DNA of 64,000 nt, taken from contig JAKCPI010022072.1 of assembly GCA_023213315.1 (NCBI GenBank), positions 1 through 64,000 of the forward strand, written 5' to 3'. Below the pieces are notes generated by a model. The model worked only from the letters and a program-made list of their open reading frames with translations. It was not told the origin of the DNA and ran no database searches. The position numbers and the translations under genes are program-made. This DNA is from Euborellia annulipes (taxonomy: Eukaryota; Arthropoda; Insecta; Dermaptera; Anisolabididae). Below, piece after piece: positions 10,201 through 63,129 of this stretch. The first letter of the stretch is position 1, and each line of letters begins with the position of its first letter.

Positions 10201-13200
10201 GCAAAAATTAGATTACAATTAAAAATTTTTATTCTTGTATTCAAAAAACTCATTTCTAAAGACTATTTACATTTAAAAGAGGTTTATTTGACACTGAACT
10301 GAATCGCACAATAATAATTTAGATTGCCGCTGCCCTTTCAAATAAAGAAATAAATAAAAAGCAGTGAAGATGAGAGGCTTTTTTTAATGGATTATTTAAA
10401 TTTTCTAACGTAACACTAGACACACCAGGGACCATCTCTTTCATTCAAATAGAATGAATGCCAAGTGGTTATTTGACATCGGTTAAACTCATCACATTTT
10501 TTTTTTTATTTTGTTACATTTAAAGTGGATAAAAAAGGGGTGAAATTTTAACCGATGCATATTCATAGCCGAGACCCCACACACTTCCCATTAAGGGCGC
10601 TAATTTGGCGCAAGCCGCAGCTGCATGGACACAAGCGCAGACAAGCTGACAAAAATCTCATGCATACTATTGATATATTACAATAAAAATTCATTATTGT
10701 TATTATAATCGATTTGTTGAATTTAAGATCTGTCTTGTTCAAACAAACAATTCCAAAATGCCGAGAATCGTCATGTTTCAAGAACGATTTTTTTGTGGAT
10801 TACAATATTTTTTCCCTACAAGAAAGTAAAAAATCTGGTGTATCAGTCGCAAAACACACCAGATTTTTTTGTGTCTAGAGTATAAGTTTCAAACTTGACT
10901 ACGCGATTCATAGATCGAGCTGAGCTACGAATGCTTCCACATCAGTAAAGTGTACTTCAAACAATTTTCATAATAAATTCCACTGATATACTTTTTAAAG
11001 AGCATCTAAAAAATCGTTGATTTATGAATTTTAATCAAAATGAGAGCAGTTAGAGCAAATTTTGAGTAAATCGAAAAAACTGAAAAAGTACATCAGTAAA
11101 GTTTACTTCAAACGATTTCGACGAAAATTTCACCGATATACTTTTTAGAGAGCATCTAAAAAATAGTTGAATTATGAATTTTAAATCAAAATTGTTGGAG
11201 CGAATTTTCAAAAAATCGGAAGAAAAAAACAACTGAAAAAAGTACATCAGTAAAGTACTAGTACTTTTTGGCTGGTTTTGTTCAAAAGCTTATTTTCACC
11301 CCTTGGGGGGGGGGGTGCCAAACTCAAATATAAAATTACAATTATAAGTTTTTCTCTGGATCACATGTATAAAGAAAGGACCGGAGAATAAAAGCCAGCA
11401 TTTTATGGACCCCACATCATCTTTAATTCGTAGATATTTCTACCGGTCATCATCTGTACAAAGAAATGATTTTATGGAGGGCCCGAGTCATTTTAAAATT
11501 TTTCGAGAAGCAGGGAACTGACGTGAATTCGAGCGAGCGTTTTGTCAAAAAAATTTTAAAATAATTACACATTGTATGACACGGGCCCTCCATCAAATCA
11601 AATATAAAATTTCAACCTCCTTTTTTCATTCCTGAGATATTTTTTCACAGACATACAGATCAATTTACGGGACCCACTTTTTTGAATTCAGGGACCTTAA
11701 AACAACCCAAAACCCATTTTAAAAATTCTCCATTTTAAGGAAGAGAAAGTAAATGTTTTTTTTTTTAAATTAAATTTATATTAAAACCGTCTCATTGGTA
11801 GAACAAACCGATTATTCATTATCCTACCTGGTATACATTCCTATCTGTATTAAATAAATAAATAAATAAAGTATACCTCAAAAATAAAATTAGGGACGTT
11901 TATTGATTTTTTTCTTAATTTATATTAGCATGCACTTATCACACGCCTTCTCTTTATATTTTTCCATTATATTGGTTTTTGTTATTTTTAAACAGTTGAT
12001 TAAAATATTCTTTTTTTTTTGTTTTTATTTTAGAAGAAACTTTTTTTTTCACACCCGACTGAATTTTTAATTAATTTTTAAAGTCATAACGCTTGAGACA
12101 GATTTAAATTAAACTTCTAGTATAGAAGTTGACTTAATTATCTACCCTACAAGAGAGGGGGGCCAACAGGTGATTCAGTGGGTGAGCAAAGGTCGCCAAC
12201 TGTGCAGGGGTAAACTTGTTCCCTTGTACAATTCTCTAATTTCCGACACGGTGGATAAAATGGTTCATTTCCTGACTGATTAAACGGCAAACCTTGGACT
12301 TTAGGGGAACTTCACCTATTTCACTCTTGGACACCCGACTGGCTTGTAATTCAAACCCTTTCTATCTTTTAAGGTTGCAAAGTTATTTAGATTACACTTC
12401 AAATTGTCATTAGAATTAGATTATAGTCAATGGTGTCTGTAAAGTCTTTATGAGGTGGGTGAGGGATGATGGTTTGGAACGGACCTCCGGAAAGCAAGAC
12501 AAAGAAAAGGCGACAGACTGACACACTGTTAAAAGCAAAAAAAATATTTTATTCACAAAAATTTTAAGATTCTAATTTTACAAAGACCCGTTCTGAATTG
12601 TAATGGTCGTATTTACGAAGAGGTGGACTAGGCGCGCGCCTGAGAGGGGGGGGGGGCAAAATTTGTGAAAAAAACTGCTTATTTCTATACGTATAGATTC
12701 TTTTGAAAATAGTCGTTAAAAACCTAAAGGAACACAGTCTTTTTTTTAAATTAAAATTAAATATATATATATATATTAAACACTTATTATTTGTTTATTA
12801 ATTAAAAAATCAACACTTGAAACGTTTTTTGACAATTACTTGTCATCATCTTGTTTGTAGATGGCCTTAAGGATGATTAATTATAAGGACCGTCGGCCAA
12901 AAAATAAATACTTTTGCTTATTATCCGTTTATTTGTAAATATTTCGACTCCAGTGATATGGAATCATCTTCAGTACAATCAACAGATGTTTTGCAAATCG
13001 TTACTTTCTCCCATCCAATATGACAAAATAGCTGACTGAGCATTCCATGAATGCAATTTTTATAATCAAAAATAAATAAAAATAATAAATTAATTTTAAA
13101 ATGGTAACCGTTGGCTCTAGTTAAAACATGCTTTAATAGGAGAATTAAATTCAAGTATGATACACAAGGTTTTTTTTTTTTTCATTGATTTATATGACCA

Positions 13201-16200
13201 TATGTGTTAAAATACGTATAAAGTGTTAATGTTAAATAAATAAATCATTGAAACAAAAAAACCTTGTGTATCATACTTGAATTTAATTCTCCTATTAAAA
13301 ATAATAAAAATTGCATTCATGGAATGCTCAGCTATTTTGCTTGTCACACCAGATTTTTTGTGTCAGGATATATATTTTTTTTTATTTAATTTAAGACCTT
13401 TATCGGCATCGGAGGCCCGCTCCCTTTTTATTCAAATTGAGTGGTATCCAATAGAATTGAAATAAATTTTGTGGTTAAAACCAATTTTGGATGGTTTTAA
13501 CCACTTTTGACCTTCGCTAAAACTTTGAATATTCCACCATCAACGCTGTAAACAATTCTGAAGGAAAAAGAAAAAATTTTCTAATGTCATTTGCACAGAA
13601 GTCACAAGCAAGCTAAATTCCTTATTCTCGAGGATTCGTTAATTAAGTGACTCCGACAATGTAGATAGCAAAACTCATTTGTTGGAGGCGCTTTCCTCAA
13701 AACGAAAAAGCAAAAGACTTCACATTGAAATTGGAAAAAATAAAAACTCATTATAATTCGAATTTTTTTTTTCTTTGATCTTGATAATTCAAAAACTCGA
13801 ATTTTTCTTGTAGTCCCTTGGCTTTCGAATTATCGAGAGTCAAGTGTATCTATTGGAAAAATCATATTGCTTAGAAAAACTCCAAATTAAACCTTTTTTT
13901 TTTTTTTTTAGATTTAGTTGAGGTGTATAGCTGATATGATTTATTTGAGGTTCAGGAATTCTCCAATGAGCAACGCAGCTAGTTTTTTTTTTCTTTCAAT
14001 TTTTATTATTAAATGTAAAGTGCCAGGGCCAACGTTTCGGTCGCTAATAATTTGGTCATTGAGTCTATTGCATTGTTAATAATTTCTTTGACCAACATGA
14101 CTATGAGGAATAATACATTGACAATGGCTTGGCCCTGATGATGGTCCTATATGCGACCGAAACGTTGGCCCTGGCACTTTACATTTAATAATAAAAATTG
14201 AAAGAAAAAAAAAACTAGCTGCGTTGCTCATTGGAGAATTCCTGAACCTCAAATAAATTTTTTTTTTTAACAGAAACTTATTAATTAAAATTTCCTAAAC
14301 ATATCAATATTACAAAATATCGGATCCCATCTCTATATATGTCCGATATTATATTATTATATTTTATATATCACACAGTGTAATATCATATTTTTTTTAA
14401 TTAATTTTTTTTTTCACTTAAAAAAAAAAATATTGTCGGATGTCTCTGACAGCTTTGCAATTAGCCCATGACAGCACCATTTATTTATCCTGACACACCT
14501 CTACATTCGCTTTGAAGGTTTTATAAGTTCCCAACTGTGGAAACCAACACTCACTTTCATATATATTGTTTTATTAAAAGCTCACTTCCTTTTTTTCAGT
14601 TAGCCTGACAGACTCTTCCCTTCAACTCCTTCCCTCCCCTTCTGAAATGTCACCTAACAAATTATTATCTTATTTACCCAATTTTTTTTATAATTCACCA
14701 TGTGTCTTTAGGGATGCGAAGTAAAATATTTTTTTGACTCAAACGTCGTATATGAACATAAGAATTTTTTTTCATATCTAATTTCCAATAAGAACGTTCG
14801 TTTGAATTTTTGAAGGATTCAACATAGTTTTATTTATTGGAAAAAAGTAAAATTTTCTAAACATATTTTTATTTTTTACTTTCTCATATATTGAGAGAAA
14901 GTATTGGATTCATGTCAAAAATTCGAGATTTTGCTGCAAATACACGTTTTGAGGTCCCCTGAGTCCAAAAAAGTGGTTTTTGCAACATGGTCTGTCTGTG
15001 TGTGTGTCTGTCTGTGAACAAAATATCTCAAGAACGAAAAGAGCTAGGAGGTTGAAATTTTAGATTTGAGTTAGGCACCCCCCTTGGCATATGACATGAA
15101 ACTTTTGAACAAAATCGGCCAAAAAGTACTAATACTTTACTGATGCACTTTTTCAATTTTTTTTCGATTTTCTTAAAATTGACTTCAACAATTTTGATTA
15201 AAATACAAAAATCAATTATTTTTTAGATACCCTTTAAAATGTATATTCTCATTTTGTTCTCAAAATTGTTTGAAGCACACTTTTTACTCATTTTACTCTT
15301 GTACTTCATAGGAAAGTTAGGAGAAATTGTTGCCATGATAACAAAATATAAATATTTTCTCATGTCTATGATTTTTACATCTTGAATATCTCTCGACCCA
15401 AAAAATCTGGTGTGACAAGCACAGAACACAACTTTCGATTACCGAAGGTAATCAGAAAGTTCGACCACATACCAGATTTTTAAAATTTGATTTTAAAAAT
15501 GATAACACTTCAATTCTAAATAAGAAAAACTTTCACACCAATTATTTTTTAAATAATAAATTTTCATAGCTCTATTCATATATTTCCCCAAGTGTAAACT
15601 ACTTCAAAAGTCTAGATTAATCTCTACGCATCAATGTTATTTATAATATGGAAAATTGCTTCCGAACATTATATGAATATAAACTAGAAAATTTAACGAA
15701 ATTTTGAATAAACTATAGAAATGATTTTAAATCTAATTTGTTCAATGAAATATATATCATTGTACCCTATTATGACCCGTTTAGGGCGTAACTAAATTCC
15801 AATTGTATCCAACTGTAATAAATTTCATATAGACCGAATGTGAGAATCTCCGTTTGTCGATTAGGAATGTATTTATTTAAACAAGCGCTAAGACATTTTG
15901 ACCATTGTGTTATTGTAACTTGACGTTCTCATTTCAACTCTTTTTTTATGTTGGTTAATTTCGGAATAACGAGACCAATCGGTTCGTCCGAATCGGCCAT
16001 CAGTCTATTATCTGGTAGAAAGGATAATTTTTCAATGAGCCGTGAGGGACGCGTGTCTCAAAAGGCCTTTAAGGGTTGAGTTACTGGAAACCCTTCTCAC
16101 CCTTCGGACCCGATCATTTCCCTACCCCATGTGTTCAAGTTTTATTTTATCGATTTTATTTACATTAATCCTGACTCTTCCTCCAAAAACCTAAATATTT

Positions 16201-19200
16201 TTATTCAATTTAATTAAATTCTCATCTAATTATAGATAAATAACACTAGGTTAAGTTTAGCTTATGCGCATTACTACGTTAATACGTCATCTTCAGAGCT
16301 ATGACACAAACGATTACATTATTTATTAACAATCTAATTATAATTTAGATAGTTAATAAATAATGTAATAATTTTTGCCATAGCCCTGAAAGTGCACAAA
16401 AGCTAAAAATAAAAACCTTTTGAAACTTAACCTAGTGTTATTTATTTATCTATAATTTGATGAGAATTTAATTAAATTTAAGAATTTTTCACCTAGCACC
16501 AAAGGTGAATTTTTTACTTTCTCTTATCTCTATATATGTTAATATATTTTATATATAGAGAGAAAGTATTGGATTCATGTCAAAAATTCGATGTTCAGAT
16601 TTTGATGGATATACACTTTTTGAGGTCCCCTGAAATCCAAAAAAGTGATTTTCGCGACATGGTCTGTCTGTGTGTCTGTTTTAAGTATCAACGAATTGAG
16701 CTATAAGGCTGAAATTTTATATTTAAGTTACACCCCCCCCCCCCCCCCGGGAGCGTGAAAATAAGCTTTTAATCAAAATCAGCCATAGTGTACTAGTACT
16801 TTACTGAAGTACTTTTTCAATTTTTTTAGATTTTCTCAATATTCGCTGCAACGATTTTGATTAAAATTCAAAAATCAATTATTTTTTAGATGCTCTTTAA
16901 AATGTATATTCTCATTTTGCTCTTGAAATCTCATGAAGACCACTTTACTCTTGTACTTAATAGAAAAGATAGTAGAGTAGTATGTCGAAAATCATGATAT
17001 CTGTTTTTCTTTTTTAATCTTTTGAGGTTTTATCATATAATTTGTTATAATTATCCATCCCTTTATCTTCAGAAAATAAATCTCTTCAAAATTTTCTGTT
17101 TCTCTCACTTCCCCTATTTATTAATTTCTCTAACTGTCTCGTCGATGATAAATTGCCACACGCCGGCTGTTATCAGTAACAACTGTGTAAAATTAGTTGA
17201 ACTGATAATGGATCTCGGAGAGACCATTATTTAATTCGGAACAGTTCAATAAAAAGCCGGTCGAGAGAGAGAGGAAGGGGTTCAAGTTAATTAAAAGTTG
17301 CAATCGATCGAGAATCAGCCTGATAAATCGTTTTATGTCACCCACCATTATCTATAATGCAACTGAATTTTTTATTTCGATTAAAAAAAAAACTCGTCAA
17401 CTAAAAATAGATTTAAATATTCACTTTTCAATTTATTTATATTTGAAAATCTTTTGTACAGTGAGCGCCTCAATTAAGCCCCACCTGAAAGCTAGAGCCT
17501 TAAGTATATGTGAAATAATTTTAAATTTTAAAAATCTACCAGATTTTAACTTTTACCTCTTTGGTCATTAAAATTCACTATACACCTTATACTATACCAT
17601 ATACTTAAGGCTCTAGCTATCAGGTGGGGATTTAATTGTGGCCCTCACTGTACCATCTCGTTGTTCTTGGGATATAAGATTCCCAACTAAACTTTAAGCC
17701 ACGGGCCACTTGTTACACTTCACACTGCTACGCTCCGCACTTGTAGCTAGTTTTTTAAATATTAATTTTTAAAATTTTATATTAAAATTAATTACCTCCT
17801 TTATCCCCCCCCCCTCCCTTTTGTATCCGCCATTGTGATGAGTAGAAGTTGCTTATGAGATGCTTTTTTTTTCAAATTCTATACTTAAAGTCGTTGAAAT
17901 TTTATATTTAAGTTAAGCACAACTTTCGATTACCGAAGGTAAGAGAAATTTGTGTACTGTGCGACCAGTCACACCAGATTTTTATATATAATTTTGTATA
18001 TGTAAATATATAACAACTCTCTTTGCATCTCGATGGTATATTCATTGAGATTGCCAATATTCTCATAAGAACTGAAGATGGCATTATCTAATTAAAGCCG
18101 AAACGTTTTCTTGATAGAGGCTATCCTGTTTGACATCCTCTCTTCCTACGTCTTAGGACATCCACTTCTCTCATCGACATAATCTACCTCCATTTTACAG
18201 AACAGTAGCAATAATGTATGTTTATAAAAAAAATCTCAAATAAGTTTCTTGGACTGTCCCCCGATGGTTTTTTAAAATCAGGATATATTGGATAAATCTA
18301 AATCCATGAATTTGGTGAATTCTTTTTTTTAGATTTGTTAAAATATCAAAGCACTAATCCTGGATTATGAATGGTGATGGGCCGTTAAATAGAAACGTTA
18401 TCGGTTGCTCTTTGAAAATTGAGTTCAAATGGGTTGAGTGGGGGGTGGCACGCGTGTGCACGTGACTTGGCCCATTTGAATACACACATAGATATATATG
18501 CATGCAAGCAGTGTCAAATATTGACACAGGAGGCGTGTGAAAGGCTTAGTGGACTTTAGTGTCATAAAGGGGAAAGGGTTTTCATTCACCCTTAAGGCCG
18601 ATGGAAAATCACCTTTATGTAAAAATCTTGCCTTTGTGTTTAAATGGTAGGCTATAAAAATTTTGTGGCTTGTACTTATTTTTTAAATAAATTATTATAT
18701 TACCCCGTTCGCTGCTTGCTAGACTAAATTCATCAATAGAAATACAGAAATCATAATAAAATCAAATTTTTTCTCTTCTTTTCAGATATGTAACTGTAGG
18801 CTGTTCTACTCTTCAGTTAATTTTAAGAAATTTTGCACCTTTAATAAAAACAAACATCCAAGCGCCGATCCAGACCGTAGGTGTGGATATCAGCCGTGAA
18901 GAGAGGCAAGTTTTATTCCCATAAAAAAAAAAATTTTATTAAAATTAATAAATAATACGCCAAATATTAAACCACATTTATTTTAAACAATAAAATATAG
19001 ATAATTTTTTTTACTTTTTCTCAATTATCTATTATATATATTTGTAATTATATTTAATATTATTAAATTTTTGTGGTTTTATATCAACGTAATAACATTC
19101 CAGTTTTTAATGAATTTTATTTATTCATTTGGAGACACAAATTTTAATTAATAAACAGTATTTATCATTGAAAATTAATTATTTTTTCTAACCATAATTG

Positions 19201-22150: not shown

Positions 22151-22451
22151 GGAACAACTTTTCTAAGAAATAATTGTATATAGTATTTTATTAAGAAAAA
22201 TCAAAACAAATAAACAAATGCAACGCTATGTGCACAATTTTAAATCAAATGAATATATAGTTTTTGAGTTTTCGTCGACTAAAAAAATTACTACAGACTT
22301 ACACACAAATCTCATTCCTAAAACTACTTAAATAGATTCTGGGGACCTTAAAATCCATTTTGACAGCTTCAGATTACATAAACTTTACCTACTCTTGGTA
22401 GGCAATGTTTAGAATGATGAATTTCTTTAATCTCATTTTACTCGAAATACC

Positions 22452-22719
22452 ATCTATTGCAATAGTATTGAGACTAAAGCCCGTTAGTTAGGCAGCCCAA
22501 ATGGCAGCTTGTCTCTGTGAGAAATACCTTTTTTCAAAGCAGATTATAGATCTAATTACAAAAGAATAACCATAAAAATTTATTTTTTTAATATAAATTT
22601 CAAGATATATCTAAATAAAAATTATCTGAATGTTTTAATCAGAAAAAAAGTTAAGTGAACGTCTCCCATTTGGACTGCCTAACTACCGGGCTTTAGTCTC
22701 AATACTATTGCAATAGATG
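22452..22719. mobile_element. MITE with about 53-bp inverted ends
   Basis: ATCTATTGCAATAGTATTGA, GACTAAAGCCCG, TTAGGCAG.CCAAATGG at the left return as the complement at the right. No class assigned. Confidence 0.8.
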
Positions 22720-26118: not shown

Positions 26119-26974
26119 TAACGAGGGCTGTATGATAAATATCCGTGTTTACCGACTGGTGGGATCACTGACGCAAAATGTGTATACCATCATTTAGCTC
26201 TATCTGTACAACGAGTCAAAATTTCAGAGAGATTTATCGAGTAGTTTTGATTTAACAGCTCTTAAAGTCATCAAGTCCGTGTATATTTGCCCCGATTCGA
26301 TTTCTTTTTTTGGATAGGACGACGTGTGAGGAACTCAAAGTGCTGTTTCTAAGGACCATGCACCTTCGATGACTACCATCAGATATTGGTTTAATGAATT
26401 CAAGCGTGGCCGAACATCCGTTTTTGATGAAGAGAGCCCAGGCCGTCCGATTGAGGTGACTTCGGAGGATATGGTCAATAAAATCCATGATATCGTGTTA
26501 GCAAGCAGATCGTTAGGCGAAGATCATTGTACACATCTCAATTGAACGCATACAAAATCCTATACGAAAAATTGGGCATGAGAAAGCTAACGGCGAGATG
26601 GGTGCCGCGTGTGGTGAAGCACACACACCAGATCACTCGTCCGCAATCGCCATAGCAAAACTGGTCGAATTACGCTACGAATTGCTGCCTCACCTGCCCT
26701 ATTCTCCAGATTTGGCCCCATGCGATTTCTTTTTGTTTCTAAACATGAAAAAATGGCTTGGCGGAAGACGATTCTCGTAAAACGAGGAAATCATCGCCGA
26801 AACAGAGGCATATTTTTCGGAGTTCGACAAATCATATTTTTTGGATTGCTTGAAAAAGTGGACTACCAGGTAAATGTATCGAGCTGAAAGAAGATTATAA
26901 TGAGAAATAAATAAAAACAAATATTTTTAATGACTTTTCTTGCCTAACACGGGTACTTATCATACAGTACCGTA
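26119..26974 (+). mobile_element. Internally deleted mariner element
   Basis: Terminal inverted repeats CTGTATGATAAATATCCGTG and complement CTGTATGATAAGTACCCGTG, ends at TA. About 855 bp, some 450 bp short of a full mariner. Confidence 0.88.
26345..26875 (+). pseudogene. Mariner transposase pseudogene lacking its catalytic centre
   Basis: Remains of the N-terminal DNA-binding region (WFNEFKRGRTSVFDEESP, GRPIEVTSEDM) and of the C-terminal catalytic part (HLPYSPDLAPCDFFLF, KKWLGGRRFS) are visible with stops and frameshifts. The last catalytic Asp (of the mariner D-D34-D triad) is in YSPDLAP; the first two Asp regions are absent, deleted between VPRVVKHTHQ and AIAIAKLVEL. The full-length family is about 345 residues. 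It cannot encode active enzyme but its ends could be moved by a related transposase. Subfamily not decided. Confidence 0.85.
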
Positions 26975-26989: not shown

Positions 26990-27540
26990 TGTAAACTAAC
27001 TACTTCTATTAACTATGAAATAACTTGAAAGTAATAATAATTTCTTGTTTATAGGTTTTGAATGTTTTTTTTTTTTACCTAATTTGGAATTAACAGAACC
27101 CAAGAATTTAAAAAATTTGTTGAATTTTATTTTCTGCACATTGATATCACTTGCATTAAAAAGCACACATGAGAAACCATCTTCAAGAAACCAATTTGGA
27201 TGCATTTGCAGGCTGCAATAAAAAAGTCTCCGAACATTTATAAATGTCTCTACTTATCTGGTCTACTTACGTCAGAGAAGAGAGAAGAATCCAATGCTGG
27301 AGGTAAATAGCATAAATTAAATCAATACTAGCATTTCATAAAAAAATTTTTATCACACCTAATGAAATAATTAATAATAAATTAATTATGAATCCCTGTC
27401 GGTAATTTTTTTTGTTTTCAAAAAAAAAAAAAAATTCATCCCTCAAGAAAAACTAGGTAAATGCTTTTGAATTACGATTATGTCAAGAGGCAATCTTATT
27501 TGTTAATTGATAAAATAGAAGCTCAGCACTAAGAAAAAAG
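26990..27540. other. A+T-rich intergenic sequence
   Basis: No coding or repeat structure recognised. Confidence 0.5.
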
Positions 27541-27586
27541 AAATAAAATGAGAGACTTCCTTTTGGCCCGAAGTATTTTAATTTCT

Positions 27587-27632
27587 CTTGTCAACGTTTC
27601 GGGTGCTAAACGTCACCCATCTTCAGGACAAA
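27587..27632 (-). ncRNA. Hammerhead ribozyme candidate e-left (best formed)
   Basis: Minus strand: stem I UUUGUC/GACAAG (6 bp, one G-U), CUGAAGA, extra U, stem II GGGUG/CACCC perfect with an 8-base loop, GAA, stem III ACGU, cleavable U. Nothing in the core is missing. Confidence 0.8.
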
Positions 27633-27741
27633 GGTGTTAACAAATTCTTGGTTCTACCTCCTTCTAAAATAAGACTATTAGTAAATTCCAAAATATATAC
27701 GTATAGCAACTATACTACTATACGTATAATAACTATACACC

Positions 27742-27788
27742 TTTTTCCTGAAGATGGGTGACGTTTAGTCCCCGAAACGTTGACGTTG
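27742..27788 (+). ncRNA. Hammerhead ribozyme candidate e-right (weakened)
   Basis: CUGAAGA at 27748-27754, extra U, stem II GGG/CCC with a broken outer pair, GAAACGUU. Stem I is poorly paired compared with the left arm. Confidence 0.55.
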
Positions 27789-28044
27789 CTAAAATGATTT
27801 GGGCCGAAAGCAAGTCTCATTTTATTTCATCTTCTGTCTGTATTAGCTACCTTTCTCCACATTTTCTTTAAACACAAATTATGATTTTTTTGTCTAAATT
27901 TTATTTAAACTATCAATTTTAAGGCTTAAATCACCTTAATGGTACTAGTATTTGAAGGTATTATTTATTTAAAAAATTTTCATCCCCAGAGAGGCCTTCC
28001 TGTAAATTTAATCTTCCAACCAACCGCCCCCACCGAGTTGGCAT

Positions 28045-28150: not shown

Positions 28151-28955
28151 CCGCCTGCATTAATCCCTTCTACTGATTTGATCTCAATAGGCTATATATT
28201 TAAAAATCTGGTATTTTTGAATAAGAAAAAATTTGATCAACTCTGTTTTTCTTTGATACCCAAAAGTGTAGAGCATTCAAAACATTCATGAACTAACACC
28301 AATGCCACTGAATTAGAGCAAAAAAAAAAAAAAAAAGGAATAGGAAATGTGTGATCAGCGTAGGGCTTCCGCCTTGTGTCAGTTGCTTGGCTGGCCCCTC
28401 TGATAGAGCTGTCCGCCCTCTGGCCTCCGCCCCAGGCTTGTAGGGACTTATTCCGATTTGCAATTCGATTTAGCACGTCGGCGGGGGGCTAGTCGGGGTG
28501 GGTGCCCCCGAATACGAATGCCTTAGCACCCAGCACCCATCCCTTGGGGTCCTTTTGGACTATAATTTGACCCAGCAGGGTGGCCACTGCCCCTTTTTCC
28601 ATATTGTAACAGTTGCTTTGTTCTATAGGGCGTTTAGGGTGCACCCTTTCATACGAAACGGCAATAGAAACATAATAAAGAGAAAACATGTTTCAAAGTG
28701 AAATCTTTTGTTCTATTTTTTTTTTACTTCTTCAATAATAAAATAATTCAATTGACGCCAACAAATGATTGATTATATATTAATTTTTATATATTTTTAT
28801 TTTTATTTTTTTATTTCTATTTATTAAGAAAGAAAAAAAAAAGTATTTTTTGCCAATTTCTATAAAACATGTTTTTCCTTTTTTATTTATTTTACAAATC
28901 ATTAAATTAAGGTATTCAGCAATTTTTACCGCATCTATTTTTACTTCTTTAGAAA
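28151..28955. other. Intergenic sequence with a GC-richer island
   Basis: 28340-28660 is GC-richer and non-repetitive, with no supported ORF; the rest is A+T rich. Confidence 0.4.
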
Positions 28956-28971
28956 TATTAATATTTTAACC

Positions 28972-29237
28972 ATAAGTGCTGGAGCAGGCAGCCAGGAAGT
29001 AAGCCTCTACGAAATGAAATTCAAGTGTAGTGGAGACTTTAATTAAATAACGCCATCCTCAGTCCATTTTCGAGAGTATGCCAGTGTATTGAGCCAGATG
29101 CACACTGGCATTTGAGTACATACTCTCGAAAATGGACTGAGAATGGCGTTATTTAATTGAAGCCGAAACTGTCTCCATTACTCTTGAGTTTCATTTCGAA
29201 GAGTCTTATTTCCTGGCTGCCTGCTCCATCACTTATT
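28972..29237. repeat. Foldback element f
   Basis: Arms begin TAAGTGCTGGAGCAGGCAGC and run inward to ATACTCTCGAAAATGGACTG, about 115 bases each with a 20-base loop. ATATTAATATTTT lies outside both ends (about 28956 and 29270) and may be a target duplication. Confidence 0.9.
29131..29179 (+). ncRNA. Hammerhead ribozyme candidate f (one core base changed)
   Basis: Stem I AAUGGA/UCCAUU perfect, CUGAGAA (G8 changed to A), extra U, stem II GGC/GCC, GAA, ACUGU, cleavable C. The left arm has the intact CUGAGGA but has lost the GCCGAAAC part. Neither arm should cleave alone. Confidence 0.6.
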
Positions 29238-29466
29238 GTTGAAATCAAACAGCCACTTCACAAATTGTCATATTAATATTTTGTCCAGATACTTGTCTTG
29301 TTAATTTTTACTTTCTCTTACCTCAATATAACTCAAAATAAGAACATATATTTTTATTATTTTTTATTTACATAGATAACTATTCATTTTTCCTTTTACT
29401 TATCTCTTTCTCTATCAATGTTTTAAAAATAAAAAAATTATTGATTTCAGGAGCATTGGCTGAATG

Positions 29467-29719
29467 TATATATAAAGAGCAGTGAGGAGATCAAGGCAGC
29501 CAAAACCAATAAAGAAAAAATATCTTTTTTTTTCAAACACTTGTCGACGTTTCGGCCGATATTCCGGCTCTCATCAGAACAATGTGCTGTTTGTCTCGAG
29601 CTTAAAGAGGCTCTTGGCAACTCCTGACGTATTGTTGGTGGGAACGTTGCCAAGAGCTCCTTTAAAAAAGATATTTTTTCTTTATGTGCCTTGATCTCCT
29701 CACTGCCCTTTATATATAA
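29467..29719. repeat. Foldback element g
   Basis: Arms TATATATAAAGAGCAGTGAG and GAGATCAAGGCA.. recur in inverse; the middle CTCTTGGCAACTCCTGACG is shared with 21920-21960. Confidence 0.88.
29541..29582 (-). ncRNA. Hammerhead ribozyme candidate g
   Basis: Minus strand: stem I UUGUU/GACAA (one G-U), CUGAUGA, stem II GCCG/CGGC preceded by GA, GAA, stem III ACGU, cleavable C. Confidence 0.6.
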
Positions 29720-29729
29720 AAAATTATTA

Positions 29730-30938: not shown

Positions 30939-31645
30939 AAAAAATCTGGTGTGACTGGCGCACAGCACACAACTTTCTCTTACCTTCGGTAATCGAAAGT
31001 TGTGTACTGTGCTTGTCACACCAGATTTTTTGTGTCGACATGTATTTAGTTCCCGACAGTACGGAACATTTGAATTCAGATGTAAAATTTATAAGTATGG
31101 GAAAATATTTATATTTTGTTACCATGACAACCATTTTTCCTATCTTCCCTATGAAATACAAGAGTAAAGTGGTCTTCAGAAGATTTCAATCGCAAAATGA
31201 GAATATACATATTAAAGAGCATCTAAAAAATAATTGATTTTTGAATTTTAAAAAAATCGTTGGAGCAAATTTTGAGAAAATCGAAAAAAACTGAAAAAGT
31301 ACATCAGTAAAGTACTAGTAATCTTTGGCCGATTTTGATTAAAAGCTTATTTTTCCGGTCCCGGGGGTGTTTAAGTTAAATTTAGAATTTCAACCTCCTA
31401 GCTCAATTCCTTCATGCTTAAAATTGAACACAGACACACCCACCCACCCACCCACCCACACACCCACACACCCACCCACCCACCCACCCACACACAGACA
31501 GACCATGTCGCGAAAACCACTTTTTTGGATTCAGGGGACCTCAAAACGTGAAGATCCATCAAAATCTCGACATCGAATTTTTGACATGAATCCAATACTT
31601 TCTCTCTATATATATATTACATATATACATAGGTAAGAGAAAGTA
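30939..31645 (-). repeat. Family A copy, full length
   Basis: Complete terminal hairpin AAAAAATCTGGTGTGACTGG..CACACCAGATTTTTT at 30939-31030, CCGACAGTACGG, ACTAGTA block, CACCCA run, and left hairpin ending AGGTAAGAGAAAGTA. Confidence 0.9.
31434..31499 (+). repeat. CACCCA/CACACA simple repeat
   Basis: Inside the family A copy, where other copies have (TG)n or (TCTG)n. Confidence 0.9.
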
Positions 31646-32436: not shown

Positions 32437-32440
32437 AGAA

Positions 32441-32703
32441 TTAACCACACCAGGTCAAATGCGCATCTATTTAGGTTCCACATTGTAAATTCACCGATAT
32501 GTAATTTCTGTCTGAATGAAGCCACAAATTATCACCTAATATTTAACTGTATACAGTTTATGGCAAGTAGAACAAACCTCATCGCAGCCATAGAACCTCA
32601 CTTCAGAGATCCAACAAATCTAATTCAAATCCTCCAGAACCCAAAAGAAGCAGTTATCCTGGCAATAGACTCATTTATCAAGGAAAACAAAATAATCCTC
32701 TAG
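32441..32703 (+). pseudogene. Non-LTR ORF2 C-terminal fragment
   Basis: About 87 codons open to TAG 32701. RSNAHLFRFHIVNSPICNFC followed by HLIFNC reads as the CX2C...HX4C zinc knuckle that ends the reverse-transcriptase polyprotein of many non-LTR elements, after the phrase T.SN.HLFRF. Only the tail survives; reverse transcriptase and endonuclease are gone. Confidence 0.75.
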
Positions 32704-32734: not shown

Positions 32735-33165
32735 GCTTATACACTCTTTACATATTTTTTACTTTTTATGATATTTATATATACATGAAATTTATAGCAC
32801 ATGTATCTTATACTCTTTACATATATTTTACCTTTTATGATATTTATATATACATGAAATTTATAGCACATGTATCTTATACTCTTTACATATATTTTAC
32901 TTTTTATGATATTTATATATACATGAAATTTATAGCACATGTATCTTATTATACTCTTTACATATATTTTACTTTTTATGATATTTATATATACATGAAA
33001 TTTATAGCACATGTATCTTATACTCTTTACATATATTATACTTTTTATGATATTTATATATACATGAAATTTATAGCATGTATCTTATACTCTTTACATA
33101 TATTTTCTTTTTATGCTCTTTATACAGTATATACACGAAATTTTTAACACATGTACCTTATACTT
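32735..33165 (+). repeat. 69-bp tandem repeat, about six units
   Basis: CTTATACTCTTTACATATAT and GAAATTTATAGCACATGTAT recur with spacings 69, 69, 72 and 67. It lies right after the non-LTR stop codon. 69 is divisible by 3, so open frames appear on both strands by chance. Confidence 0.9.
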
Positions 33166-33349
33166 TATACATGTTTTTTTTTTTTATTTATCTATTGATA
33201 TGAAAGAAGTTTGCTGACAATACGAAAAAAAAAAAAAAAGCTGTAAAAAAAAAAAACTGTAAAAAAAGAAAAAAAATCATTGTGTGGTTTTATGAAACCA
33301 CGATGCAAGTGAAACTTTTTTCGGATCGTAGGCGTTTAACTGAAAATTT

Positions 33350-34840: not shown

Positions 34841-34905
34841 TTGAGTCGGAGCAAGTGCACAGTACTTGATAACGGCTGCAGAATAAGCAGTCGAAACGTT
34901 GTAGA
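34841..34905 (+). ncRNA. Decayed hammerhead-like motif m
   Basis: UUGAUAA in place of CUGAUGA, stem II GGCUGC/GCAGUC, GAAACGUU. Stem I not seen. Relic only. Confidence 0.3.
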
Positions 34906-35529: not shown

Positions 35530-35800
35530 TATTCCTCGTCGAAATGCAAATACTTGGGGAGTTCATACTACACCTGAGATTTAATAAAACAGGTTGCAGA
35601 ATTGTAACCTCAAAAGATTTTGAGAAAAATTTTTAATATTTCAAAATTAGAATAAAAATACACTTTTTTATGGGCATATCGAGGGAGGGCAAGGGGACAA
35701 CTGCTCTCTCCCCTTCCAAAAGTAAAAATAAAAAAAACAGAACAAAATAAATATAAATAAAAAACTGAGAAAATTCAAGCCAAAAGCTTTAATAAACGCA
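35530..35800. other. Intergenic sequence
   Basis: Nothing recognised. Confidence 0.4.
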
Positions 35801-41683: not shown

Positions 41684-42369
41684 AAAAATCTGATGTGATG
41701 GTCGCACAGCCCACAACTCTTCGGTACGAAAAATTTGGGTTCTGTGTTGCACATGATGTGTGAAAAAATACATTTAAATAAAACATAATTGATTTAAGAA
41801 TTTTAATCAAAATCGTTAGAGCGAACTTTGAGAAAATCAAAAAAAAAAAAAAAACTGAAAAAGTGCATCAGTAAAATACTACTTTTTGGCCGATTTTGTT
41901 CAAAAGCTTATTTTCCCACCTCATGGAGGTACAGTGAGGGACAATATTAAGTCCCACTCATGCGTTTTCTACTTGTGATTATTTCATTGTTTTTAAAAAA
42001 ATATTATATATTCTTTAATGGAAACTTTCATGGTTCAAACCTAGAAAATTTCCAATAAAGATTTTTCTTTTCTTTTATAAAAACAATGAAATAATCAAAA
42101 GTAGAAAACGCTTGGATGGGATTTAATATTGTCCCTCACTGTACCTAACCTAAATATAAAATTTCAAACTCTCAACTCTTTTCGTTTTTGAGATATTTTG
42201 TTCACAGACAGACACACACACAGACAGATCATGTTGCGAAAACCACTTTTTTGGATTCAGAGGACTCCAAAACGTGTATATCTCGACATAGAATTTTTGA
42301 CATGAATCCAATACTTTCTCTCTATATTTATATTACATATATACATATATTGCTAAAAGAAAGTAAAAA
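41684..42369 (-). repeat. Family A copy with nested MITE
   Basis: Reduced hairpin AAAAAATCTGATGTGATGG at left, AAAGAAAGTAAA at right; the MITE 41930-42143 sits within the CCTCATGGAGGTAC stretch. Confidence 0.85.
41930..42143. mobile_element. Tc1-type MITE
   Basis: TACAGTGAGGGACAATATTA ends in perfect inversion; TA at both borders. Outer 10 bases shared with 17457-17652 and 52643-52881 but the inside differs. Confidence 0.82.
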
Positions 42370-43273: not shown

Positions 43274-43899
43274 TAAAAATCTGGTGTGACTGGTCGCACA
43301 GCACACCTTTCGGCAAGATGTGTACTCTGCTTGTCACACCAGATTTTTTTGCGTCGACATATATTTAGGTTCCGACAGTACGGTACATTTGAACTCAAGA
43401 TGTGAAATTTATAAGTATTGGAAAATATTTATATTTTGTTACTATGGCAACCATTTCTTTCATCTTTCCTATGAAGTACAAGAATAAAGTGGTATTTTGA
43501 AGATTTCAATGACAAAATGAGAATATACATTTTAAAGAGCATCTAAAAAATAATTAATTTTTGAATTTTAATCAAAATCGTTTAAGCGAATTTTTAGAAG
43601 ATCGAAAAAAAAACTGAAAAACTACATCAGTAAAGTACTAGTACTTTTTGACCGATTTTGATTAAAAGCTTATTTTCACGCCTCAGGGGGGGGGTCTAAC
43701 TTAAATAGAAAATTCGAACCTCTTAGCACAATTTCTTCATGCTTAAAATTGAACACAGACAGACAGACAGACCATGTAGCGAAAACCACTTTTTTGGATT
43801 CACGGTACCTCAATCAAAATCTCGACATCGAATTTTTGACATGAAACCAATACTTTCTCTTTCTATATATTAACATTAATAGAGGTAAGAGAAAGTAAA
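43274..43899 (-). repeat. Family A copy, near full length
   Basis: Shortened hairpin AAAAATCTGGTGTGACTGG..CACACCAGATTTTTTT, complete body, AGAGGTAAGAGAAAGTAAA end. Confidence 0.88.
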
Positions 43900-46399: not shown

Positions 46400-46455
46400 T
46401 ATGGAAAACTAAATATATCTCGACACAAAAAATCTGGTGTGACAGGCACGGTCCA
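46400..46455 (+). repeat. Family A right-end fragment
   Basis: GAAAACTAAATATATCTCGA, ACACAAAAAATCTGGTGTGA, then broken. Confidence 0.65.
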
Positions 46456-47301: not shown

Positions 47302-47990
47302 TACTTTCTCTTACCTATGTATATATGTAATATATATATATAGAGAGAAAGTATTGGATTCATGTCAAAAATTCGATGTCGAAATTTTGATGGATCTTCA
47401 CGTTTTGAGGTCCCTGAAACCAAAAAAGTGGTTTTCGCGACATGGTCTGTCTGTGGGTGTGTGGGTGGGTGTGTGGGTGGGTGGGTGTGTGTGTGTTCAA
47501 TTTTAAGCATGAAGGAATTGAGCTACGAGGTTGAAATTTTATATTTAAGTTAAACACCCCCCGGGACCGGAAAAATAAGCTTTTAATCAAAATCGGCCAA
47601 AGAGTACTAGTACTTTACTGATGTACTTTTTCAGTTTTTTTCGATTTTCTCAAAATTCGCTCTAACGATTTTGATTAAAATTCAAAAATCAATTATTTTT
47701 TAGATGCTCTTTCAAATGTATATTCTCGTTTTGCCCTCAAAATTGTTTGAAGCATACTTTACTCTTGTGCTTCATAGGAAAGATAGGAGAAATGGTTGCC
47801 ATGGTAACAAAATATAAATATTTTCCCATACTTATAAATTTTACATCTGAATTCATATGTTCCATACTGTCGGGAACTAAATATATGTCGACACAAAAAA
47901 TCTGGTGTGACAAGCACAGTACACAACTTTCGATTACCGAAGGTAAGAGAAAGTTGTGTGCTGTGCGCCAGTCACACCAGATTTTTTTTT
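47302..47990 (+). repeat. Family A copy, full length (reference copy)
   Basis: 689 bp. Left hairpin TACTTTCTCTTACCTATG..AGAGAGAAAGTA; ATTGGATTCATGTC; AAAAAGTGGTTTTCGCGACA; TG/GTGGG run; AGTACTAGTACTTTACTGAT; TTACCATGG-like GGTTGCCATGGTAAC; CGTACTGTCGG-like CCATACTGTCGGGAAC; right hairpin AAAAAATCTGGTGTGACAAG..CACACCAGATTTTTT whose tip is TTACCTTCGGTAA on one strand. No coding frame. GGTAAGAGAAAGT at the right hairpin mirrors ACTTTCTCTTACC at the left end. Confidence 0.92.
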
Positions 47991-52475: not shown

Positions 52476-52642
52476 CCCAAAAGTTTAAATCCCTGTGTTA
52501 TTAGTTACGGTTTAATTGAATTATTCTTTTTTTACTTTTTCAAATTTGATTCCAATGATTTTTTTTAAATTTTTTATAAAAAAAAAAATAAAATTTTTTT
52601 TGTTTTTGTTAATTTTGCATTATTTAAGGCATTTAATAGATG

Positions 52643-52881
52643 TACAGTGAGCGCTACAATTAAGTCCCCACTTGATAGCTTTAGCCTTAAGTATATGGTA
52701 TAGTATAGGGCCTATGGAGTAAAGTGAAATAATTTTAATGACCAAAAAGGCAAAACGAAAAATCTGGTACAGATGATTTTATTTTACCTTTTAAAATTTA
52801 AAATTATTTCACCATTTACCATATACCATATACTTAAGGCTGAGGCTATCAGGTGGGGAGTTAATTGTGGCGCTCACTGTA
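52643..52881. mobile_element. Tc1-type MITE
   Basis: TACAGTGAGCGCTACAATTA, GCCTTAAGTATATGGTATAG and complements; TA borders. Same family as 17457-17652. Confidence 0.85.
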
Positions 52882-52889
52882 CTGGAACC

Positions 52890-53708
52890 AATTCCAAGTG
52901 CTTAAAAAATTAATAATCTTTAAGGAAATTTTACAAAATAAATATCCCATGGATTTTTAAAAAAGAATTAATTTTTACTTTCTATTACCCTATATTTTTA
53001 TATAAAAAACATCAATTAGTTTACGGGACAGATGAGATAAGCCGGGCAAAGGCGAAATTTCCCGAATTCTGAATTTTAATAGATTAATAGATGAAATATT
53101 AAATTAATATATTATTCTTGATTTCTAGTTTTTTTTTTTTTTTTTTTTTTTAATACTAACTTATTCATAAATAATTCACTTATTTTAGAAATCTTTATAC
53201 TAAAATAAGTGAGAGATATCCTAGAGAGAGAGATTGAGCTGGTAATAGAGAGACTGGTTGGGATTTCTCGGTGACATGTTGCCGATGTCATCCTTCGCAG
53301 GCGCACTGCCAATGAATTATTTCCTCTCTGAATCCCCCTCTCCATAACTCCAATGGCATACTCACGAGTATAGAAGTTACATGTTGTAAAGGCAGAGAGG
53401 GAATTTACTGTTTGTGTTTGTTCGCTCACCCATTCCCAAACCTCCCTTCAGCCCACTCAATCCTTCCATTTAGTTGTACGCGTAGGTAGTTTTTGTTACA
53501 TACTAACTTTATTATGTTTATAGTATTTTCAGACTTTCATTTATATTTTAACATAAATACTATTTTATTAAACAATCTATTTTGTATTCATATATATATA
53601 TATAACAATTACTATTTAAATAAAATTAATTATTTAGCTTTTTAGTATTGATTTCATTCATAAATTATATTTTAAATTTATTTTTATTTAAATAAATGAA
53701 CTTTGCTT
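52890..53708. other. Intergenic sequence with a GC-richer stretch
   Basis: 53255-53460 is complex sequence; a 105-codon minus-strand frame there starts in a poly-A derived Lys run end and has no recognised similarity. Confidence 0.35.
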
Positions 53709-57661: not shown

Positions 57662-57926
57662 GCAGGATGACAGTCAGGAATGAATGAAAATTTTAATCAA
57701 TTTTTATCCAATTTTTTATTTCGATTGCCGACGTTTCGGACGCAAGTCGTCCTTCCTCAGGACCTAGGATCAATGCAACAACTTTTGTTAACTTTCATCA
57801 TACATATTTGTCTCAATGATAAGTCTTGAGGAAGGACGCGACTTGGGCTCAAAACGTCAGCAATCGAAATAAAAAATTGGATAAAGATTGATTAAAATTT
57901 TCATTCATTCCTGGCTGCCATCCTGC
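57662..57926. repeat. Foldback element i
   Basis: Arms GGATG.CAG.CAGGAATGAATG, AAAATTTTAATCAAT and TTTTTTATTTCGATTG with complements; middle near 57795. Confidence 0.9.
57728..57763 (-). ncRNA. Hammerhead ribozyme candidate i
   Basis: Minus strand: stem I GUC/GGC, CUGAGGA, extra A, stem II GGAC/GUCC, GAA, stem III ACGU, cleavable C. The right arm version (57828-57870) has UUGAGGA and AAAACGUC and looks dead. Confidence 0.62.
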
Positions 57927-59115: not shown

Positions 59116-59194
59116 ATATAAAAATGTATACTAATCCTTTTGTCTTTAATATAATCCAAAGTATTAAATATTCTTCAATTTAATTTAATTATCT

Positions 59195-59310
59195 CTAAAG
59201 ATAGACAAATAAATAACGCGAGGTTAAATTTCAAAAGGATTTTATTTTAGTTTATGTGCATTTCGACGTAATACGTCATCTTGAGAGCTTTGGCACAAAC
59301 CTTTTGTTCT
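59195..59310 (-). repeat. Solo arm related to foldback c, with decayed ribozyme
   Basis: Shares GATAAATAA.AC..AGGTTAA, GCATTTCGACGTAATACGTC with 16207-16479. Minus strand motif: CUCAAGA, extra U, stem II GACGU/ACGUC, GAA, AUGCACAU: core U4-G5 damaged but GAA intact, complementary to the damage in copy c. Confidence 0.6.
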
Positions 59311-59319: not shown

Positions 59320-60200
59320 CACACATGCCATTCTCACTTATAGATACACTTTTCTACATTGCTTTTATACTTTAGTTGTTACAGGTTGACGACAGCTTCA
59401 AACCTGCTTATCCTTTGGACTTCATACATTAGGACTGTGAAAGCTGTTCCTGTTAGGCGTCGTCCGAGTTCTGGCTAGAAATCCTTCTTTTGGTGAGTAG
59501 CTCTTGAAATTTTTACAATTCCATATATGCTGACTTATAGAGAAGGATATTGGATGTTTAGAACATTTTTTTTTAAACAATATTATCAATTTCAATTTTG
59601 AATCCTCGTCTATTTGACTAGCTTCAGAGATGTAAATATTCTGATTCAAATTTTGGTATATTTTCATCTATACAAAAATAATCGAAATTAAATTACAAAC
59701 AAAAATGGTCTAGTACATAATCACGCTGATGTTAACGGTTCGGGAGATTTAGAGGGGTAAAATTTGATGGTTGTCAAGGTAACAAGGTATTAGAGGATAT
59801 TAGATCAAGAAATAAATATTTCTCTATCTCAGTGTCTCCTTTCATATTTGCGTGAATATGTACTAGACCATTTTTGTTTGTAATTTAATTTCGATTATTT
59901 TTGTATAGATAAATCTTTGCGGAAAGCTGCATAGTTTTCGAGATATTTGCGAAAAACCATCTTCCCGCAACTTTACCGGCTTATTTTATCTCGCCAAAGG
60001 ACCCGGTACTAAAAAGGAAACTCTTGCCAATTTTCGTCGCCAGCTCTTGGACTATTATGTTCCATCTTTTTGAAATAGCGATTAAATAATATTTTTCACG
60101 CTTGGTTATAGGCCCTACTAGGGTTTCTAATTTTGTAAAATGTTTTCTGAAAGATTCCAAATAACCTCCATCCAACATTCCAATCTTAATACTTTTCATA
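59320..60200. other. Intergenic sequence next to the solo arm
   Basis: Two minus-strand open frames (59422-59667, 59981-60199) have no recognised domain; the first has a weak H-rich pattern that could be a Penelope endonuclease tail but is not convincing. Confidence 0.3.
59666..59910. mobile_element. MITE with about 52-bp perfect inverted ends
   Basis: ATCTATACAAAAATAATCGA, AATTAAATTACAAACAAAAA, TGGTCTAGTACAT and exact complement. The perfect match suggests recent movement or gene conversion. Confidence 0.85.
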
Positions 60201-60680: not shown

Positions 60681-61256
60681 AAAAAATCTGGTGTTACTGA
60701 CCGCACAGCACACATCTCTTACTCTTGGTAATTGAAAGTTGTGTTCTGTGCTTGTCACACCAGATTTTTTTGTGTCCACATATATTAAGTTTACAGCATT
60801 ACATTTGAATTCAAGTTGTGAAATTTATGAACATGTGAATATTGTTACCATGACAACCATTTCTCATATCTTTCGTATGAAGTGGAAAAGTAAGTCTTCA
60901 AACAATTTTAAGAGCAAAATGAGAATATTCATTTTAAAAAGCATCTAAAAAATAATTGATTTTTGAATTTTAATCAAATTCGTTGGAGCGAATTTTGAGA
61001 AAATCGAAAAAAAAAAAACTGAAAAATTACTTCAACAAATTACTAGCTCATTTTGGCCGATTTTGATCAAAAGCTTATTTTCACGCCTCAGCGGGGTGCC
61101 TTACTTAAATATAAAATTTCGACCACCTAGCTCATTTCCTTATGCTTTTGAATTGAACACACACTTCTAAACGTGTATTTCCATCAAAATTACGGCACCG
61201 AATTTTTTACATGAAACCAATACTTTTCTCTCTATATATTAACATATATAAGTAAA
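60681..61256 (-). repeat. Family A copy, near full length
   Basis: AAAAAATCTGGTGTTACTGA..CACACCAGATTTTTTTGTGTC at left, body shortened in the TG-run region, TATATAAGTAAAA at right. Confidence 0.88.
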
Positions 61257-62415: not shown

Positions 62416-62529
62416 CAAAAGATTTGTTCGATTTTATTTTTTTCCTTTGTCCTACATTCGTTTCTGAATTAGTTAACTCTCTTTCAACTTAATTATTTTT
62501 TTTTAAATTGATTAGTTAAACATTTGATA

Positions 62530-62755
62530 ATGAAATAGGTAGGTTAATTAAATTTAAAAATTAATTAAGACGTCAGATATTTAATAAAATATAAAATTTA
62601 ATCTCTTGGCGATCGATTTCGCTTACAAAGCATCCTCAGGCCAGCTGGAAGATGCTTTGTAAGCGAAATCGATCGCCAAGAGATTAAATTTTATATTTTA
62701 TTAAATATCTGACGTCTTAATTAATTTTTAAATTTAATTAACCTACCTATTTCAT
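62530..62755. repeat. Foldback element j
   Basis: 226 bp, arms of about 110 bases (ATGAAATAGGTAGGTTAATT.., AATCTCTTGGCGATCGATTT) separated by only a few bases near 62642. Confidence 0.93.
62607..62643 (-). ncRNA. Hammerhead ribozyme candidate j
   Basis: Minus strand, 37 nt: stem I UGGC/GCCA, CUGAGGA, extra U, stem II GCUU/AAGC with 3-base loop UGU, GAA, stem III AUCGAU, cleavable C. Core complete. The right arm version has CUGGAAGA, an altered core. Confidence 0.72.
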
Positions 62756-63074
62756 CATGTACACGTCAGAAATAGAAGAATATATTCAACATATTTGATA
62801 ATGGTTCTAATTTTCTCCTAAAAATTTTTGTTATTTTTTTCACCAATGGAGATTTTGATTTGTCTAAATCAAAATTTCTCAGGCTCCCACTCTCACTGTT
62901 CCCTTTTCAAAAATTTTTCTTTGAGATTTGAGAAAGTTAACATTAAAGTTTTTTGTTTTCATTGGATTATATATAATTTTTTTAATTCTCACTGAACAAG
63001 TCAATGAATAACACACCCATAAAGAGAATACATAATAAATGTATTGTGCCCTTTTAACAACTCCGGGACAGATA

Positions 63075-63129
63075 CAATTTGAAAGACTGATGATGAGAAA
63101 ATAAAGTTTTCTTGAAACGTCTCGAATTG
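63075..63129 (+). ncRNA. Hammerhead ribozyme candidate k
   Basis: Stem I CAAUU/AAUUG plus GA/UC with an internal loop, CUGAUGA (63087-63093), extra U, stem II GAGAAAA/UUUUCUU (one G-U), GAA, ACGU, cleavable C at 63121. Solitary. The internal loop in stem I is where active natural hammerheads make contacts to loop II. Confidence 0.68.

Follow-up and report, generated by a model that had tools for sequence, protein, structure and literature searches.

Penelope-like elements (PLEs) usually carry minimal hammerhead ribozymes without helix III (PMC6155905), and this minimal form is a known one (PMC6155905, PMC7229834). The closest described systems are the Poseidon element PAc of the anole and the PLEs of Adineta vaga. 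In the former, the PLE protein cuts and extends both DNA strands, reverse transcription begins in a stem-loop at two adjacent sites that bracket a tail of 30-40 bp, this AC-rich stem-loop lies 111-118 bp into the open reading frame (ORF), the targets are A+T-rich, the ORF starts at stem II of the hammerhead, and the protein is required for cleavage by the hammerhead; validation of the late insertion steps is described as pending (PMC11167929). In A. vaga, head-to-head inverted pseudo-long terminal repeats (pseudo-LTRs, pLTRs), one of them with a 31-bp tail, are accompanied by target duplications of 8-10 bp, and the route to these head-to-head copies was left open, self-priming on an antisense template being favoured (PMC3846280). 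Here, a 64,000-nucleotide stretch of the dermapteran Euborellia annulipes is analyzed (assembly GCA_023213315.1, contig JAKCPI010022072.1, positions 1 to 64,000 of the forward strand; hereafter, the window), which contains numerous hammerheads, most of them located within palindromic foldbacks. These foldbacks are very probably pLTRs of PLEs, mostly inserted head-to-head.

PLE hammerheads, inverted pLTRs, tails and duplications have all been published, and the E. annulipes genome is a very abundant instance of them. Its elements resemble PAc in the location of the hammerhead, with its minimal stem III, at the boundary between the pLTR and the ORF, in the tail that appears to lie between two reverse transcription start sites in a stem-loop, and in the A+T-rich targets; an ORF with reverse transcriptase (RT) and GIY-YIG domains that is associated with such a hammerhead is found in this genome too. 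Unlike in PAc, the examined copies are mostly head-to-head pairs of pLTRs devoid of an ORF, the elements are present in very many copies, the tail motif is CAGCYA with the partner TRGCTG, and, in the RT/GIY-YIG element denoted L076, the ATG follows the hammerhead instead of being located at stem II. The A. vaga PLEs show the same head-to-head pLTRs with a tail of about 31 bp on one of them, along with short duplications and solo pLTRs, but bear ORFs and are present in few copies, whereas the E. annulipes palindromes are many, short and ORF-less, have duplications of 10-15 bp, and carry a one-sided tail in nearly every duplication-bearing case. Two features may be new, namely, the abundance of pLTR palindromes that lack an ORF and the nearly constant restriction of the tail to one side; a literature search of limited coverage retrieved no account in which head-to-head pLTR pairs without an ORF are the main product, and unpublished status is not claimed.

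The hammerheads in the window are real. Anchors defined by sequence only (CTGANGA...GAAAY) occur 13 times, compared to 1.28 per dinucleotide shuffle (100 shuffles), and stem III is loopless and self-complementary at 11 of these 13 anchors (0.18 per shuffle) even with no palindrome demanded by the search. One of the 11, at 49578, forms no pairs in stems I and II and is probably a chance match. Across the 11 anchors, stem I comprises 41 pairs when each strand is matched with its own partner and a mean of 13.4 when the partners are swapped; for stem II, the respective values are 43 and 23.1, and none of 5000 swaps reached the observed value for either stem. A strict descriptor that allowed 0, 1 or 2 extra bases identified six window sites (0.05 per shuffle, 60 shuffles), all six with one extra base, and CGAAACGT is found 11 times against 0.78 expected. 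In 264 kb, a structural scanner that permitted 0, 1 or 2 bases between A9 and stem II and required a palindromic stem III produced 22 matches, and none in any of 20 shuffles.

Additional evidence comes from a covariance model (R1) that was built from 30 hammerheads of other contigs, with the window excluded. All 30 sequences were picked with the pattern CTGANGANGG...CCGAAACGTY, they are not 30 independent cases since several elements contributed both arms, and the E-values of the model are rough. In the alignment of these sequences, 76.4% of the cells are paired, compared to 52.0% after shuffling and 27-46% in slid alignments; changes on both sides of a pair affect 106 cells against 49.6 in shuffles, and such two-sided changes are present in 10 of the 12 pairs, including all seven pairs of stem I, the other two being fixed by the pattern. 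In the window, the model detects 11 sites at E<0.01, namely, eight of the ten main sites of the initial annotation together with those at 27742, 4603 and 4300. The two that fall short are 62607 (E 3.6) and 16258 (E 5.3). Among the four sites that had been considered weaker, 27742 turned out to be strong (5e-6), in contrast to 34841 (0.029), 35915 (0.2) and 59258, for which there is no match up to E 10. The hammerheads at 4603-4657 (plus strand) and 4300-4354 (minus strand), which occupy the arms of one palindrome, are absent from the earlier list. Up to E 10, the model reports 36 window matches; those not supported in any other way number about 19, twice the E-value expectation. Among the 61 matches listed for 200 kb of two other contigs (C3 and C11), 51 have E<=0.01, part of the C3 matches having gone into the construction of the model. 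The high density of hammerheads in the window, the short palindromic stem III, the single extra base and the pairing of divergent stems I and II, each with its own partner, had all been recognized correctly from the sequence.

The initial annotation proposed a search with the Rfam hammerhead models as a check that could overturn it and, taken alone, the outcome of this search (no match in the window at the gathering score and no hammerheads up to E 10) would mean that the claim fails. The silence of Rfam is probably due to the loopless stem III and the base after A9. The Rfam models look blind to hammerheads with an extra base after A9 because look-alikes in viral contigs were likewise missed in all five cases scanned. 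An Rfam scan can give zero hammerheads in a sequence full of them. The viral look-alikes come from a pattern scan of IMG/VR that yielded 25 contigs, 12 of which, by eye, contain three-stem hammerhead look-alikes (L006, L007, L008, L009, L010, L011, L012, L016, L020, L022, L023 and L024). In these, stem III is looped and a single additional U, for which the pattern selected, separates A9 from stem II; several are located, as judged by eye, directly upstream of an AGGAG-like site; they are possibly a phage hammerhead variant. Rfam missed five of five of them (L006, L010, L012, L023 and L024) at the gathering score and three of three up to E 10.

All 22 structural matches in 264 kb contain the CUGANGA and GAA core with H17 following stem III (C in 16 and T in six), but depart from the type I rule that stem II joins A9 and G12 directly, with exactly one extra base in each of the 22. 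Stem III is ACGT in 17 matches, ATAT in four and ATCGAT in one, that is, a very short palindrome without a loop, as in the minimal hammerheads of PLEs. Small hammerhead variants with a diminished stem III, attributed to Lunse, Weinberg and Breaker (2017), reportedly cleave as dimers; the tiny or loopless stem III and the association with Penelope-like elements reported for them are features of the E. annulipes ribozymes as well. Given that stem III is loopless, a complete ribozyme would require two RNAs, so that, as far as can be predicted from the sequence, these hammerheads can be complete only as dimers. Predicted folding energies favor the dimer over two monomers in 13 of 13 cases; most of the predicted dimers lack the shape of a hammerhead, and hence these energies provide no evidence.

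A narrow hammerhead pattern has 41,412 exact matches in the 903-Mb assembly, compared to none for the reversed control pattern. This corresponds to 46 matches per Mb in the genome, with the five matches in the window amounting to 78 per Mb, so that the window is only mildly rich in hammerheads. Because the model identifies about twice as many sites in the window (11) as the pattern does, the genome-wide total can be roughly estimated to be of the order of 10^5. A head-to-head inverted arm is present at 17 of 24 distinct pattern-chosen loci sampled from the genome. The genome probably offers copies on this scale in which truncation points, the side of the tail and the duplications can be counted.

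The foldback setting that had been noticed around the ribozymes applies to most of the listed sites, which are embedded in palindromes of about 230-460 bp, and not to those at 12933, 18067 and 63075, for which no inverted arm was found. In the genome sample, neighboring model hammerheads located within 300 bp of each other are head-to-head in 12 cases, tail-to-tail in one and in no case in the same orientation; with the limit at 450 bp, the respective numbers are 13, five and zero. The anatomy of the foldbacks was derived from 34 distinct inverted elements in 291 kb, about 27 kb of which are motif-chosen loci. In 29 of the 34, the arms have a shared end 81-124 nt after the hammerhead nucleotide C3. 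Fourteen elements are flanked by target duplications of at least 10 bp (10-15 bp, 90% A+T), and in all 14, one arm stops at the shared end, and the other extends 20-49 nt outward. Among 3000 random intervals, duplications were encountered in 122, with 51 one-sided, 54 two-sided and 17 without extension. When the low-complexity filter was omitted, the tail was one-sided in 18 of 18 elements. Nine palindromes of the window were examined, and a 10-bp duplication is present in five (compared to 3% of random intervals); four of these five (4265, 28963, 29467 and 62527) are one-sided. Four copies of one family have differing centers or truncation points, as read from the alignment coordinates; many elements contain long central spacers, and one arm of an inverted element can lack the ribozyme. 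Whether it is the tailed or the untailed arm that reaches further upstream varies among the elements compared, with no apparent rule.

The tail appears able to form a stem with the arm. Fifteen tails were compared, including those of 13 of the 14 duplication-bearing elements (L033, with a partial arm, was omitted) and two more window cases; 14 of the 15 contain CAGCCA, CAGCTA, CCAGC or ACGTCAG (counted from the listing). The usual partner in the arm is TGGCTG, TAGCTG, GCTGG or CTGACGT, with a loop of 26-47 nt, and the TGGCTG/CAGCCA and TAGCTG/CAGCTA stems differ by compensatory changes. The observed pairing was equalled by 5 of 2000 swaps anchored at CAG and by 1 of 400 unrestricted swaps. The foldbacks were originally presented as unrelated-looking and as a kind not known to be described. 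This view is not supported: they have a common plan beyond the ribozyme, comprising the shared arm end, the tail stem-loop, the one-armed tail and the A+T-rich duplications of 10-15 bp, and one of them aligns to a pLTR of a Penelope-like element that encodes RT and GIY-YIG domains. At the main threshold, all 14 duplication-bearing elements combine inverted pLTRs, a tail on one arm and short duplications, as is typical of PLEs.

An element with RT and GIY-YIG domains and the same kind of ribozyme is present in the genome. Of 710 candidate matches to GIY-YIG (PF01541), 150 were scored, which gave at least 118 matches in the genome; five of these lie in open frames of 822-852 aa, and nearby matches on opposite strands run minus-then-plus, that is, head-to-head (by eye). 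The one RT/GIY-YIG element that was read, L076, contains an ORF of at least 841 aa which reaches the end of the fetched stretch and matches RVT_1 (E 1.9e-12) and GIY-YIG (2e-5). Its hammerhead (E 4e-5), with one extra U and ATAT as stem III, ends 8 nt upstream of the ATG and is followed by GCTGG...CCAGC. With an ORF that begins at stem II, as in PAc, the extra base would be the U of the start codon AUG; L076 does not follow this arrangement. The alignment of L076 with the right arm of the window element 4271-4730 begins upstream of the ribozyme and extends to where the tail starts (score 107; the highest score among 200 shuffles was 53), so that an ORF with RT and GIY-YIG domains is linked to a pLTR shared with a window element. 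This is one of the 12 window elements tried; the shared plan, and not sequence alignment, suggests that pLTRs from many different PLE families have been inserted in the window. ORFs of at least 150 aa in the 200 kb of contigs C3 and C11 and in 30 loci number 18, including duplicates, and none appears PLE-like by eye.

The sites are thus, with high probability, minimal PLE hammerheads, and each foldback would be the product of one 5'-truncated PLE insertion with priming at both ends, the latter component being suggested by the published biochemistry. The element itself would consist of two copies of the pLTR plus the element start, arranged head-to-head with no ORF between them. Under this scheme, the PLE RNA would contain the hammerhead and, downstream, the tail stem-loop, typically TRGCTG...CAGCYA. 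The RT/GIY-YIG protein would bind this RNA and cleave both strands of A+T-rich DNA, after which reverse transcription would be primed at both DNA ends, from a near start within the loop at one end and from a far start, usually 20-35 nt downstream and past the stem, at the other. Both cDNAs would proceed toward the 5' end of the RNA, halt at different points and be joined there, with a palindrome, a one-armed tail and a 10-15 bp target duplication as the outcome. Given the nearly constant one-sided tails combined with differing centers, independent priming at the two target ends fits better, and the same combination argues against the palindrome moving as a unit.

Several observations weigh against this interpretation. 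No 10-bp duplication is detectable in 20 of the 34 inverted elements, and several window hammerheads are decayed. The tail is one-sided in nearly all cases, not always: at a lower arm threshold, 14 of 15 elements comply, with C3:126179 extended on both sides; for duplications of at least 8 bp, 17 of 20 do, and 17 of 21 when the lower arm threshold is applied as well; in the window, the element at 35800 has a 10-bp duplication without the one-sided pattern. The support for the tail stem is modest, and in three of the 15 tails (29901, 4613 and 64230), the best helix is a different one. In comparisons with L076, the 11 other window arms tried all failed to score above shuffles (60 each). Finally, hammerhead mutants of the anole element still insert (PMC11167929), and therefore the ribozyme need not matter for insertion. 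In a bolder version, PLE insertion is inherently two-ended and two-site, with a near and a far start and two RNAs joined via the palindromic stem III; ORF-less palindromes would then be the commonest end product, the tens of thousands of copies its fossil record, and the job of the ribozyme would be RNA pairing and dimer cleavage rather than self-cutting of monomers. We consider this version unlikely, and dimerisation as the link between the two RNAs used at both ends is speculation.

Among the alternatives, the same elements might have become palindromic through self-priming (snap-back) of one cDNA, or on an antisense template, as proposed for the A. vaga PLEs, where the Discussion of PMC3846280 prefers self-priming and cites junction palindromes. 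The presence of CCAGCTGG at the center of 62533-62792 and the 9-nt spacer in 4271-4730 are compatible with such a route. Snap-back, however, should yield equal outer ends, whereas these ends differ in all 14 elements flanked by a 10-bp duplication and, when the loosest setting is applied, in 17 of 21; one-sided tails, albeit in a small sample, are not predicted by this model. The many long central spacers speak against snap-back as well, as does the in vitro activity of the anole PLE enzyme, in which both strands are extended and both start sites are used (PMC11167929). On balance, snap-back is a tentative explanation, and probably not the correct one. Metazoan retrozymes, which move via circular RNA, are likewise small, non-coding, A+T-rich, interspersed hammerhead repeats, but are organized as direct tandem repeats of 150-450 bp (PMC7229834). 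Here, no same-strand arrangement occurs among the 13 neighbors within 300 bp or the 18 within 450 bp, the hammerheads have a loopless stem III, and the ends and the tail match those of PLEs; the only tandem array encountered, C3:64469-65609, is a satellite with a spurious anchor match. Without direct tandem monomers, a retrozyme origin was rejected as very improbable.

The general appearance of the elements, short and with long inverted repeats and duplications, is also that of foldback or miniature inverted-repeat transposable element (MITE)-type DNA transposons, which might incidentally carry a hammerhead-like sequence within the inverted repeats. Such transposons are expected to have symmetric termini and a duplication of constant length, in contrast to the outer ends that are unequal in 14 of 14 elements and the duplications that vary from 10 to 15 bp; moreover, the four copies of one family differ in center or truncation, and one arm can miss the ribozyme. 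This reading was likewise rejected and deserves hardly any credence. That the motifs arose by chance in A+T-rich palindromes could be suspected from the enrichment of bare CTGANGA in the window, which is merely about twofold (33 against 17). The structural matches (22 against none in every shuffle), the reversed-pattern control (41,412 against 0) and the covariation refute this idea, and its likelihood is negligible. Insertion of PLE pLTRs by two-ended priming thus remains the preferred explanation.

The window insertion 4271-4730 is a head-to-head pLTR/pLTR pair with the tail on the right arm, flanked by a 12-bp duplication, AAATATATTTAG (4259-4270 and 4731-4742). It sits within another repeat; at 37150 and 46360, copies of this repeat continue across the site without interruption. 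The right arm contains the hammerhead 4603-4657 (plus strand, stem III ATAT, E 6.5e-5) and the left arm the hammerhead 4300-4354 (minus strand, E 0.0072), the core of which is mutated to CTGTAGA. The palindromic pLTR insertion 13912-14258 has identical arms of 106 nt, a left arm that is truncated within the ribozyme and bears a tail containing CAGCTATACACC, and a TAGCTG/CAGCTA tail stem; its duplication is only a T-run, so that the left boundary is uncertain. Its hammerhead, 14125-14176 (plus strand), has ACGT as stem III (E 1.7e-6). The inverted arms at 27540-27828 form a palindromic pLTR insertion with a hammerhead in both, 27583-27636 (left arm, minus strand, E 4.8e-9) and 27738-27791 (right arm, plus strand, E 4.5e-6). 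Two head-to-head pLTR insertions follow. The one at 28968-29269, with the 13-bp duplication ATATTAATATTTT (28955-28967 and 29270-29282), has its tail (CAGCCAC) on the right arm, a TGGCTG/CAGCCA stem, a hammerhead with the core changed to CTGAGAA (29127-29183, plus strand, E 5.3e-4) and a remnant in the left arm (29025-29072, minus strand, E 0.24). The other, at 29443-29717, with the 11-bp duplication AAAAAATTATT (29432-29442 and 29718-29728), has its tail (CAGCCAA) on the left arm, a TTGGCTG/CAGCCAA stem and a hammerhead at 29536-29587 (minus strand, E 7.3e-5). In the palindromic pLTR insertion 57662-57926, which has inverted arms, the left-arm hammerhead 57720-57770 (minus strand, stem III ACGT) is strong (E 2.8e-8), and a remnant is detectable in the right arm (57816-57868, plus strand, E 0.095). 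The head-to-head pLTR insertion 62533-62792 has the 11-bp duplication ATTTGATAATG (62522-62532 and 62793-62803), a tail on the right arm with a CTGACGT/ACGTCAG stem, and a hammerhead variant (62601-62649, minus strand) with a 6-nt palindromic stem III, ATCGAT, and stems I and II of 4 bp each.

Three hammerheads have no inverted partner that was found: 12928-12983 (minus strand, E 0.0015), 18062-18117 (plus strand, E 8.4e-10), which is 78% identical over 50 bp to 29120-29169 of the 28968 element, and 63077-63131 (plus strand, E 2.6e-5). Decayed sites include a hammerhead with GAA not in place (16271-16306, minus strand) in the palindromic pLTR insertion 16193-16489, which has inverted arms; a decayed arm at 59155-59300 (minus strand), without a model match, that is related to the latter element (83% over 100 bp); a hammerhead-like site at 34856-34910 (plus strand); and the hammerhead 35919-35967 (minus strand) in the palindromic insertion 35800-36163, which has inverted arms.

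Other repeats are also present in these sequences. The insertion 4271-4730 has as its target a dispersed, MITE-like repeat, AAAATCTGGTGTGAC..., that occurs in at least eight places in the window (4225-4258, 13333-13373, 30939-31049, 40095-40183, 43318-43371, 46406-46452, 47877-47987 and 60740-60793). Hammerhead-free palindromes at 17456-17653, 41927-42146 and 52619-52910 have GTACAGTGAG near their ends in common and constitute another foldback family; further palindromes without a hammerhead are located at 2617-3063, 9667-9896, 22451-22719 and 59663-59913. The satellite at C3:64469-65609 (L062) consists of 7.1 copies of a 160-bp unit, and the relaxed-anchor match within it is a false positive in which AAATTT was taken for stem III. 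A tandem repeat of 69 bp (6.4 copies) occupies 32743-33187, and the segments 26517-26777 and 32437-32700 resemble, by eye, fragments of a mariner transposase and a non-LTR RNase H. Contig C11 contains paired zinc-finger exons which, by eye, we take to resemble insect lola.

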